Shown here: positions 12,919 to 24,297 of the stretch, piece by piece
Layout: each line of letters begins with the position of its first letter
How positions within the stretch are numbered: position 1 is the stretch's first letter
The notes under the pieces: generated by a model
The model's database searches: none
Seen by the model: the letters and a program-made list of their open reading frames with translations, nothing else
Told to the model about the DNA's origin: nothing
Translations under genes and position numbers: made by a program
Virus record (IMG/VR): IMGVR_UViG_3300025101_000182
Coordinates: 1 to 24,396 of that record
Strand: one strand, 5' to 3'
Source: a virus
DNA: 24,396 bases

Positions 12919-15111
12919 TTATTTGATATTTTTAAATGGTGATTTTTTAAAACTTTTTTTATTTATCATACGTTTACCTCTACCTATATTCTTAAAAGGG
13001 TTCATAGATAATTTATACAAATTTTGTGAATTATCCAAGTTATTTCCTGACTTATCACTTTCTTTACGCTTTAAATAGCCTCTATTGGACTGTTGAACTC
13101 TAGCAAAGGCAACAAGTGCAGAAAATGCAACAAGTCTATCCACGTTTAAACCAGGGTAATATTGTGACATTTCTATCAATAACATTTTATCTGGTATTCT
13201 TTGTACACCTAATGTCTGTGATATTACTTCTCCATTGTCATCTAAGTCTTCATCTATAGCTTCTCTTATATATTCTATAGCATAAGAGATGAGGTGATTT
13301 TTAAACAATGTTCCTGTATTTTTCCAACCATATTCTTGAAATACATTAGCGTTTGATCCTAGATCTTTTAAAAATAAAACTTGTTGTTTTGGAACTAAGT
13401 ATTTTTGTTTACGTTTTGCAATCATATGTTGAATAAATAAAGATATATTATTCTCTACTATTGTCCATGCTTTGTACCATTCAATAATAAGTTCTAGCCT
13501 TTCATGTGTTTTATTTATATCATCAAATCTACCACACCATGATGCAACTATTTTATCTTTCTCAACAAATGTTTCTGGTCCATCTGGAGTTTCTCTAGTT
13601 ATTTCAATAGGATTTTTATATACAAAAATACTACACAAAGAATCTGATGTTGTAGTTTTACCTTCTGACACAGGGTCAATAGATGCATAATATGTTCCAA
13701 AATCTGGATTATCAATAGGTCTTTCCCATACAACAATAGATCCTGTTTTATCTTCTAACTTTTTCTTTACAGGAAATGTATTTATTGGTAACTTTTTTGT
13801 TCTTTTAGGTATTATTCCTTTTGAAGTTCTTTCAAGCTCTATAAACTCATATGAATATTCTTTATCTTCAATACGTTTTTGTTGTTCAGCTATAATACCT
13901 TGAGGAAATATTGCTGCTTGCCTATATGCAAAAGCTTCTGCAATATTTATTGGTTTCTGAGATATACGTAATTGATACTGTTCAGGTGCTAAATCTTTTT
14001 GCCATTGTGATCTTTCTTCTTCAATAGCCTTTAAAGACTCTTTAACTAATGAATTGCCGTATTTATCAATATAAGGGGGCATAGACCATTGTTCAGGAAT
14101 AAATAGACCTGCTACTCCAAAACCACCTTTATCATCCATTAAGTTTGTTTCTACAGCATATATATCATTTGCCTGTGGATTTAATATCATTTCTTTTAAT
14201 GGATTACATTGTGCTAAATCACCCACTGATCCTGCAGCAATAAACATACCTGTAGTTATCATACCTGAAGTCATTGCTGGTCTTATATACTCATAAGTTT
14301 GATCCATCTTTGGAGCAATACCAGCCTCTTCATGAAAGAAATAAGTACAAGGTCCACCTACACCTGTTGTTGCATTTTTTTCAAAAGATGCACCTTGTAT
14401 TTTAGACATAAGTCCTTTATTAGTTTTTCTGTTATTTATTCTTACCTCTATTTTTTGTTCCCATAGTAAAACTTTTTCTGGTGTACATGGTCTATACCAA
14501 GCAGTATGTTCATTTAAAAATGTTTTATATTCATCAAGAAATTTCCAAGATCCTTTGTCATTAATATAATCTTTTAATGATGCACCAATTTTACATATAG
14601 ATCCTTCTTCATACCAAAACTGATTTATAATTTTAGCCATATGAAAATAAGATGATGCTATCTGTCTTTTCTTTAGTATAGCTGCATGTTTATGATGTAG
14701 CTCTGCTAATAATTCATATAATGCCATATGATACTGTGCATCTCTTACTTTAGCAAAGCCATACTTCTTTTCTTCTTTATCAAAAATAGGTAAGAAGTTT
14801 AACCACATATAGTAATCTCTTGTTACATAAAAAGTATTTTTATCACTCTTAAATATAACACCATCTCTACATTTCTTTTTTTGATCTTCCCAATATGTGC
14901 TAAAATCTTTTGATCTAAAAGGTTTATCACAATAAAAACCTTGTTTATTAAATATCTTAGCTTGTTCATTAAAAAGCAAAGCAACCTCATCAAAATCATA
15001 TTGACCAGGTTCCTTAAATAATGTATTTAAATATTTGGTAAAGTCTTCTTTTTCTTTAAACTCTGTAACCGTCCATTTATTATTCTTATATGTTGGTACA
15101 GTTTTATACAT
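12919..15111 (-). CDS. terL: Terminase large subunit (TerL)
   Basis: This encodes 730 residues with both TerL domains. The ATPase part has a deviant Walker A (KKRQIASS, residues 147-154), a Walker B with acidic pair (YFFHEEAG, 257-264) and a motif III-like AAGSVGD (292-298). The RNase H-like nuclease part has three candidate metal-binding acids: D479 in ASIDPVSEG, E553 in IVENN and D658 in NVDRLVAF. The C-terminus is strongly basic. The product is the motor that cuts concatemers and pumps DNA into the prohead through the portal encoded next to it. The start overlaps the GroES-like gene by 8 bases. No small subunit is recognisable. The classical P-loop lysine is absent (ASS in place of GKS), which is tolerated in some phage TerLs with an upstream Lys/Arg. 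Confidence 0.93.
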   Translation of the reverse strand: MYKTVPTYKNNKWTVTEFKEKEDFTKYLNTLFKEPGQYDFDEVALLFNEQAKIFNKQGFYCDKPFRSKDFSTYWEDQKKKCRDGVIFKSDKNTFYVTRDYYMWLNFLPIFDKEEKKYGFAKVRDAQYHMALYELLAELHHKHAAILKKRQIASSYFHMAKIINQFWYEEGSICKIGASLKDYINDKGSWKFLDEYKTFLNEHTAWYRPCTPEKVLLWEQKIEVRINNRKTNKGLMSKIQGASFEKNATTGVGGPCTYFFHEEAGIAPKMDQTYEYIRPAMTSGMITTGMFIAAGSVGDLAQCNPLKEMILNPQANDIYAVETNLMDDKGGFGVAGLFIPEQWSMPPYIDKYGNSLVKESLKAIEEERSQWQKDLAPEQYQLRISQKPINIAEAFAYRQAAIFPQGIIAEQQKRIEDKEYSYEFIELERTSKGIIPKRTKKLPINTFPVKKKLEDKTGSIVVWERPIDNPDFGTYYASIDPVSEGKTTTSDSLCSIFVYKNPIEITRETPDGPETFVEKDKIVASWCGRFDDINKTHERLELIIEWYKAWTIVENNISLFIQHMIAKRKQKYLVPKQQVLFLKDLGSNANVFQEYGWKNTGTLFKNHLISYAIEYIREAIDEDLDDNGEVISQTLGVQRIPDKMLLIEMSQYYPGLNVDRLVAFSALVAFARVQQSNRGYLKRKESDKSGNNLDNSQNLYKLSMNPFKNIGRGKRMINKKSFKKSPFKNIK

Positions 15112-21568: not shown

Positions 21569-21865
21569 ATGTCAAAAGATGTTTTTTTCCACAAGACTGT
21601 AAATAATACAATTATTGTAAAGTCTAAACCTTTGTCCACACGTAAGACGGTGGTCAACGGTCAAGAAGTGTACACAAGAGAACAAGGTCAAGTGACCTAC
21701 GGACTCTTATGTTTAATTGACGCAAATGGACAAGCTATTGCGCCATCATCACTTGGGCTTAAAGCCAACCAGCTCATGAAGGGCATACGCCTTTCTGATT
21801 CACCTGTAATGGATCAAGATGATCCAACAGTTGAAACAGGCATGTTCTGGGCTGAATCTTATTAA
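21569..21865 (+). CDS. 98-residue unknown protein, first rightward gene
   Basis: The predicted protein is beta-like in its first half (NNTIIVKSKPL, EQGQVTYGLLCLID), then has APSSLGLKANQLMKGIRLSD and an acidic end ETGMFWAESY. No signal, membrane segment or known motif is seen. Codon and base use are more GC-rich than in the left block, and it stands alone between a strong promoter candidate and the long non-coding stretch. An isolated small gene at the divergence point is a typical place for an early gene; the role is unknown. Confidence 0.7.
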   Translation: MSKDVFFHKTVNNTIIVKSKPLSTRKTVVNGQEVYTREQGQVTYGLLCLIDANGQAIAPSSLGLKANQLMKGIRLSDSPVMDQDDPTVETGMFWAESY

Positions 21866-21877
21866 GGTTCAGTTCCA

Positions 21878-22040
21878 GCATGACACTGGTTGAATAGTCA
21901 CTGGAGTCTGCATACACTCTATAAATCAGTATGCAACTATACTCACTCAGACTGAATAGCTACAGACTACAAGCTCTCACTGCATTCTTGATTGATAAGC
22001 AGTCAACTTGGCAAGATTGTAAGCTATTCGGTGAGTGTTA
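21878..22040 (+). ncRNA. Structured RNA region directly after the 98-residue gene
   Basis: Strong helices fill this stretch: TGCATAC (21909-21915) with GTATGCA (21929-21935); GAATAGCT (21954-21961) with AGCTATTC (22022-22029), continued across a bulge by ACTCAC (21941-21946) with GTGAGT (22031-22036); and inside it TCTTG with CAAGA (about 21986-22015). CCAG with CTGG forms a further hairpin at 21875-21888. It may be a separate small RNA, a structured 3' leader end, or the first part of the larger RNA downstream. Confidence 0.5.
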
Positions 22041-22199
22041 CACCACATCCACAACCATTATAGTTACACAACCACAATAAAGTGTGTGGAATTAAAAAAA
22101 AATTGTGTGTGTTAAACAATGTGTGTGAGGTCATATTTCCCACATATTACCACTTTGTTACACACTTACAACTGTTAAACACAGTAGTATATAATATAG
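22041..22199 (+). other. Gene-free GT/AC-rich stretch with possible promoter
   Basis: I see no gene here. Short GTGTGTG and ACACAC runs face each other (AAGTGTGT near 22078 and ACACACTT near 22160), an A-run of nine lies at about 22096, and ACTGT with ACAGT forms a small hairpin at 22171-22185. A perfect TATAAT at 22190-22195 has only a weak -35 candidate. It could hold the promoter of the large structured RNA, or a replication-related site; neither is proven. Confidence 0.3.
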
Positions 22200-22975
22200 C
22201 TATCATAATAGTTATTTCAACAACAGTTACAACTACTGTTACTCATACATAATGTTTGTCTTCTCTCTCTATAGGATGAGCATATATGTATCCGCAATAT
22301 TAAAATAAATAGGTTCTATAGAGTTACCTATGATCATAATACTCTTGACACTTGGTTTAACGGGATCTGCAGTTCTATCAACCACTATCTGAAATGATAT
22401 ACTTTGATATAAGCATTTGATTGTAAACAGTGTCCTACAAGTTCTACAATAAACAGTTGCCTTCACGTGGCGTAGAATGTAAGTAATTTGCAACTCCATT
22501 ATGCAAATGAAACTAAATACTGGAAAATATAAGCGTAGCCTGAATTGCAAGTCAGGTTAGGATTAGAACTATCGTTAACTCTTGTGCTAACAGGGGAGGA
22601 TAGGATCGTGTAGCCATCCAGGCGTATAAGTATATCTAAATAGATATGCTTCACCACTTAATAGTGGACATGATTATGGATCTTATTAACAGACAGAAAA
22701 TCTACTGTTAGTATGGTAATAGGTTATCTTAATAGGTGTCGCTTAACATCTAGATAACACACATAGTCTGTAATAGACTGCTAAATGTATACACAAGGCC
22801 AACTGGAAGAGTGTATATAATAGTAACTTGGGAGAGTTATAGTGTTTACCGAGACAAACTGATGTGAGTCAGATAGTATTTCCATATGGTTGATTACCAT
22901 CTAATCCGTGCTTTTAATGCAGCAATATCTGGTCACAAGCCCAGTTGAGAGATGCAGAGTGAAAGCACACATCAT
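22200..22975 (+). ncRNA. Large ornate structured non-coding RNA (GOLLD/ROOL-like candidate)
   Basis: About 770 bases with no credible gene but a nearly unbroken series of helices. Pairs include AACAGT/ACTGTT (22222/22235), ATAGGT/ACCTAT (22309/22326), TTCTAC/GTAGAA (22442/22472, with GCC/GGC nested inside), ATTTGCA/TGCAAAT (22486/22502), CCTGA/TCAGG (22539/22552), AGTATATC/GATATGCT (22629/22643), CCACT/AGTGG (22654/22663), TAACAG/CTGTTA (22687/22705), GTTATCT/AGATAAC (22723/22752) with AGGTGT/ACATCT nested, AGTCT/AGACT (22765/22775), TATACAC/GTGTATA (22788/22811), TAACT/AGTTA (22824/22835), ATGGT/ACCAT (22886/22896), and GTGCTTT/AAAGCAC (22908/22962) closing over CTGG/CCAG. Base composition is more even than in the genes around it. 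Size, phage context and a tRNA gene about 1.2 kb downstream fit GOLLD or ROOL RNAs; the exact class and ends cannot be settled by eye. Confidence 0.65.
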
Positions 22976-23002
22976 TCAAGTTTAATTAAACAAAAGATTA
23001 TT

Positions 23003-23350
23003 ATGAAAGAATCATTTAAAAAAGTCTGGAAGTTAAAAAGTGAATACCTAACACATGTATTTGCTCCAGCAGTTTATCTATTATTGTGTTACTTAGCATT
23101 TATTGGTGGCCATTTGTCAGAACCATTTATGCTAATCATGCTAACTGTATTTTTAGTGGCATTAGTATTTATAAACTATGTAGTTTATAACAATCCACCA
23201 AGGAGATACAGAGCAAGATTTTATATAGAGCACATACCAATGATTGGATTTGGAATTGTGTTTGATGATATATGGTGTATTGTTTTACCTTATGTTTGCA
23301 TAGGTATAGATTTTAGAGATGTATATAAATTTAAACTACGTGCCTTATGA
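23003..23350 (+). CDS. Small membrane protein, unknown
   Basis: I start it at the ATG at 23003 (115 residues); a longer frame opens at 22952, but that start lies in the structured RNA's 3' end. The protein has a basic start (MKESFKKVWKLK), membrane helices at about 18-36 and 41-62, a polar basic loop (PPRRYRARF) and a hydrophobic C-terminal part (about 80-102). It overlaps the next gene as ATGA. Function unknown; the upstream AT-rich leader has no Shine-Dalgarno sequence. Confidence 0.65.
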   Translation: MKESFKKVWKLKSEYLTHVFAPAVYLLLCYLAFIGGHLSEPFMLIMLTVFLVALVFINYVVYNNPPRRYRARFYIEHIPMIGFGIVFDDIWCIVLPYVCIGIDFRDVYKFKLRAL

Positions 23351-24181: not shown

Positions 24182-24255
24182 ACACCCATAGCTCAACTGG
24201 ATAGAGCAACAGCCTTCTAAGCTGTAGGTTGTAGGTTCAAGTCCTACTGGGTGTA
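24182..24255 (+). tRNA. tRNA-Arg (anticodon TCT)
   Basis: A full cloverleaf is visible: acceptor ACACCCA with TGGGTGT, D stem GCTC/GAGC, anticodon stem ACAGC/GCTGT with loop CTTCTAA (anticodon TCT), and T stem GTAGG/CCTAC with loop TTCAAGT. The discriminator base is A and CCA is not encoded. It reads AGA, the arginine codon favoured in such AT-rich genes. Confidence 0.95.
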
Positions 24256-24297
24256 CTGAGTAACAAATAAAATGAATATTAATTTAAAATTAAAAAA

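Follow-up and report, generated by a model that had tools for sequence, protein, structure and literature searches.

The question raised by this locus is whether a stretch without genes at positions 22200-22975 of the window (the whole 24.4-kb virus contig analyzed here, 24,396 nt) encodes a giant structured RNA, as an earlier note proposed, and whether such an RNA belongs to GOLLD or ROOL or forms a new class. The window carries crAss-like structural genes on its minus strand, including those for TerL, the portal, the major head protein, PhoH, and GroES, and the best listed matches to its TerL, from crAss-like and Flavobacterium phages, have 24-26% identity. Past ~21.4 kb, the coding strand switches to small plus-strand genes, and the RNA is located at the start of this plus-strand region, past the switch that lies upstream of TerL (Table 1). 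The region indeed holds no plausible gene: the overlapping ORFs are all unsupported and at most 93 aa long, for which reason we rejected a coding explanation, and the next gene runs from 23003, a start codon taken from the sequence.

The ~770 bases claimed to be structured proved to be so in their 3' part and not in their 5' part. On the plus strand, 22535-22968 has an MFE of -134.2 kcal/mol, compared to a shuffle mean of -103.6 (z = -4.93), and none of 100 shuffles folds as well. Region 22300-22534 gives no fold signal (z = +0.29, with 122 of 200 shuffles folding at least as well), and the whole interval 22200-22975 shows z values of -2.7 on the plus strand and -0.1 on the minus strand. The feature is therefore ~430-440 nt long, preceded by ~200 unstructured nt, and the full 776-nt extent was rejected, since the fold of its 5' part is at chance level. 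No 5' processing element of the RNA was found, and its 5' end is undefined.

Table 1. Positions of the features discussed in the text, in coordinates of the window.
Feature	Position	Strand	Details
TerL	12919-15111	-	
98-aa gene upstream of the slot	21569-21865	+	No PHROG match
33-nt leader, CTATAGGATRA-N12-CCGYAAYATT	22269-22301	+	Upstream of the slot, invariant length, 73 viral contigs
5' module common to the window, L002, and L030 (AGGTTCTATAGAGTTACCT...ACTCTTGACACT...GTGTCCTA)	22309-22440	+	73% over 136 nt, E 1.6e-13
RNA body	22530-22915	+	18 covarying helices, 108 pairs; predicted 5' product of twister cleavage
Helix 1, 5' hairpin CCTGA/TCAGG	22539-22556	+	5/5 pairs doubly changed
Helix 2, GGATTAG (22560-22566)/CTAATCC (22901-22907)	22560-22907	+	100% paired, 3 double-change pairs
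Long-range complementarity, 22582-22593 with 22705-22716	22582-22716	+	99.3% paired (12 sequences), 2 compensatory double changes
Helix 7, hairpin AAGTATATCT/AGATATGCTT	22628-22651	+	8/10 pairs doubly changed, 100% paired
Helix 9, long-range stem, 22677-22684/22878-22885	22677-22885	+	4 double-change pairs, 92.9% paired
Inner multibranch domain, helices 10-16	22715-22850	+	Window-free covariance model: 71.5 bits, E 1.6e-13
Twister P1 stem, GTGCTTT/AAAGCAC	22908-22968	+	
Type-P1 twister ribozyme	22911-22965	+	RF03160, 43.4 bits, E = 5e-8, full model 1-68
115-aa ORF downstream of the RNA	23003-23350	+	No PHROG match
tRNA-Arg	24182-24256		In the region of small plus-strand genes

The last ~55 nt of the RNA match the whole type-P1 twister model, keeping the core elements UAA, GC..GC, GGUC.CAAGCCC, and GAG. 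The multibranch unit closed by GTGCTTT/AAAGCAC, which the earlier note had pointed out, does exist, but its identity as a known ribozyme (twister-P1, RF03160) had been missed. Twister-P1 is found by Rfam at the same relative place in all five homologous loci scanned, with scores in the family of 43-57 bits (57 in L104), below the Rfam gathering cut-off of 67.2. Among homologues, twister P2 switches between UGC/GCA and AUC/GAU, and double changes occur in three of the four helix-20 pairs. Solved twisters cut at a U-A step (PMC6154101), which by analogy places the predicted cut at U22915|A22916. Separately, twister-like matches occur in twos or threes between short genes in four viral contigs (L084, L095, L114, and L115), with spacings from a few hundred to ~2000 nt. 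Tandem repetition at the twister spacing, with periods of up to 500, was looked for in L084 and not found.

Homologues were searched for by a twister-core scan of viral contigs, followed by nhmmer with the window RNA as query. The window RNA can be aligned over its whole length with eleven more full-length sequences, all on other viral contigs (alignment A4, 12 sequences, the window being 59-61% identical to the others). The nhmmer matches cover most of the RNA and not the ribozyme alone (E ~1e-25 to 1e-31). Independent patterns elsewhere in the RNA also led to these contigs and brought in L117, L119, L121, L122, L125, L133, and L134. In L122 (8602-9105) and L125 (8712-9213), the loop of helix 11 contains a ~39-nt insertion and the stem sequence is swapped, with compensatory changes. 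Contigs L116, L118, L120, L123, L124, and L127-L132 were discarded as pattern matches only, with no significant match to the RNA family. Among named phages, blast of the window RNA, L101, and L104 revealed no relatives, two L104 matches of 50 and 36 nt being judged chance. Among GTDB genomes, one RNA pattern had no match at all, and the sole match of another, in Sphingobacterium (L135), was rejected as chance (nhmmer E 7.5).

We observe a conserved fold across this family. The consensus of 122 pairs in 21 helices is paired in 98.1% of cells in the 12 sequences (shuffled 86.8, slid 33-42). Double changes occur in 62 pairs, compared to 26 after shuffling and 3-12 after sliding, and the score is 0.399 (0.177 and 0.05-0.07, respectively). 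When the twister is removed, 57 of the 108 pairs of the body are doubly changed, compared to a shuffle mean of 22.8 and 3-12 in slid controls, and 97.9% of cells are paired. As a control for circularity, a structure was predicted from eight homologues, leaving out the window and L104; 106 of its 124 pairs are kept in the window, versus 43-49 in slid controls, and 34 of the 106 are kept by double substitution. A covariance model of the inner domain, also built without these two sequences, found L104 at E 2e-31. It matched neither the remaining slot RNAs nor the unrelated twister loci included in the search, and revealed no divergent members in other leader-bearing phages or other twister loci. 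With homologues aligning end to end, strong covariation, and a fold better than that of shuffled sequence, the idea of a large ornate phage noncoding RNA is well supported.

In the resulting map, helix 2 closes the whole multibranch domain and adjoins the twister. The long-range complementarity joins two near-invariant segments and overlaps a local hairpin at 22581-22594. Judging from the sequences, it could compete with this hairpin, form a pseudoknot on it, or represent an intermolecular contact.

Regarding the class of this RNA, Rfam cmscan of 21860-23010 at E<=5 shows no match to GOLLD, ROOL, OLE, or HEARO, contrary to the proposed GOLLD or ROOL membership. GOLLD members often exceed 800 nt and have a conserved 3' domain (PMC12286853); this domain (RF02032, 416-position model) is not matched in the window at E<=5. 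The body (~375 nt) matches no Rfam 15 family, with only chance-level window matches besides twister-P1 (E 2.2 or worse), and in the five homologous loci no Rfam match besides twister-P1 overlaps the RNA. The window RNA is therefore neither GOLLD nor ROOL, and it is the alternative suggestion of a new class that agrees with these results. No published description was found in the open-access literature searched, the coverage of which is incomplete, so that an earlier description is possible.

The intuition about GOLLD was nevertheless right for the genomic slot, if not for the window RNA itself. In this slot, we observe GOLLD in the two closest relatives, L002 (TerL 87% identical) and L030 (TerL 74%), behind the same leader. 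The GOLLD matches (L002 2778-3171, 73.0 bits; L030 10191-10584, 70.9 bits; E ~1e-17 to 1e-18) are below the Rfam gathering score of 150, yet full length. The L030 copy escaped both a whole-genome GOLLD search and a long cmscan but was recovered by a short-stretch scan, probably indicating a filter effect. The exact pattern of the 5' module occurs in only three viral contigs, each with a large RNA; the module gives no fold signal (22300-22534, z = +0.29) and, beyond its ~130 nt, the window diverges completely from both relatives. Since L030 is the TerL outgroup, the simplest history from these comparisons, which concern one clade only, would be that GOLLD came first and was replaced in the lineage of the window. 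Nevertheless, the two GOLLD copies are 92.5% identical, suggesting an apparently recent horizontal exchange of the slot, which makes the direction of replacement uncertain.

The leader marks the slot in the relatives of the window: the 73 contigs carrying it (L007-L079) are crAss-like, and each of four 108-120 kb genomes tested contains exactly one copy. Its T7-promoter-like CTATAGG suggests that it may be a promoter or leader of the early region. The leader often lies ~60 nt ahead of the first small plus-strand ORF. Long ORF-poor stretches also occur in the slot of L007 (741-1424; also in L038 and L047) and of L008 (minus strand, ~624 nt after the leader). The L007 and L008 stretches show a moderate fold signal (z of -2.8 and -3.0) without Rfam match, and these loci are possibly further unlisted large RNAs.

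The hosts of the homologues are crAss-like phages where testable, and are distant from the window (TerL 27-28% and major head protein 23-28% identical). Positions could be compared in three of these distant genomes (L101, L097, and L119), and in each of them the RNA occupies the same slot as in the window, just past the change of coding strand upstream of TerL. It lies ~4-6 kb from the TerL 5' end and on the opposite strand, the corresponding distance in the window being 7.4 kb. In L104, L119, and L125, the upstream ORF ends only a few bases from the start of the RNA, or the two overlap, which leaves the RNA little room for a promoter of its own.

From these comparisons, we consider it probable that the RNA represents a new class of large structured phage RNA that has its own 3' twister processing and is interchangeable with GOLLD. 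The RNA would be transcribed within the plus-strand operon, and the predicted twister cut would release a ~386-nt body with a defined 3' end, parted from the downstream mRNA, the 5' end being made by a nuclease or an upstream start. The freed RNA may then act in trans and fill the role of GOLLD in the sister phages. For the fuller proposal, an undescribed class in which the twister is a 3'-maturation device of a ~375-nt multibranched domain that takes over the function of GOLLD in crAss-like phages, perhaps by forming a self-assembling RNA particle, we see the chances as even. GOLLD forms 14-mer cages (PMC12286853), which makes a similar self-assembly of the window RNA plausible by analogy, as a lead only.

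The main rival is a cis-acting allosteric ribozyme, in which the body would sense a ligand, a protein, or temperature and switch the twister, thereby regulating the downstream early operon. The closing helix of the body directly adjoins twister P1, the near-invariant 12-nt long-range pairing excludes the local hairpin in a switch-like manner, and the next ORF often starts 24-39 nt 3' of the ribozyme. Nevertheless, we find this reading unlikely: at least five unrelated ORFs are found 3' of the RNA in the different phages, which argues against control of one gene, 18 covarying helices are large for a sensor, and the sister phages have GOLLD, not a riboswitch, in the slot. A selfish or mobile RNA element, retrozyme- or intron-like, that carries a ribozyme and moves between phages might explain the presence of the RNA in phages with such distant TerLs and would suit a recombinogenic slot; this seems very improbable for an RNA with no ORF, no second 5' ribozyme, and no intron family match, which is always in the same slot where mapped. 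Least probable, and largely refuted already, is a highly divergent GOLLD with a rebuilt 3' half, since the GOLLD-defining 3' half and any GOLLD match (E<=5) are absent from the window and the helices and twister have their homologues in a separate family from distant phages, even if slot, leader, and 5' module are common with the GOLLD-bearing L002 and L030.

To our knowledge, no purpose has been established for GOLLD-type phage RNAs. That close relatives of the window naturally carry GOLLD in the slot where the window has an unrelated RNA suggests selection for a job rather than for one fold, and provides a comparative handle on that job. If the preferred reading of a twister-processed new class is true, the twister also gains a concrete biological context, the end-trimming of a large operon-embedded RNA.

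Among known systems, the glmS type is a ribozyme fused to a regulatory domain. The window RNA is likewise a (predicted) self-cleaving RNA beside a protein-coding gene, but with a different ribozyme, no known ligand, and downstream genes that are not conserved in its family. It differs from the type-P1 twister (RF03160) in the covarying 375-nt domain that is fused 5' of the twister and conserved with it. ROOL is similar as a large multibranched phage RNA with long-range pairings, and a tRNA gene is near in the window, whereas the window RNA is smaller, ribozyme-ended, and without Rfam match. Compared to GOLLD (RF02032), the window RNA is ~430 nt long with an unrelated body, a terminal twister, and no sequence or structure match; nevertheless, both are large ornate phage noncoding RNAs, GOLLD occupies the same slot behind the same leader in L002 and L030, and a tRNA gene is nearby.
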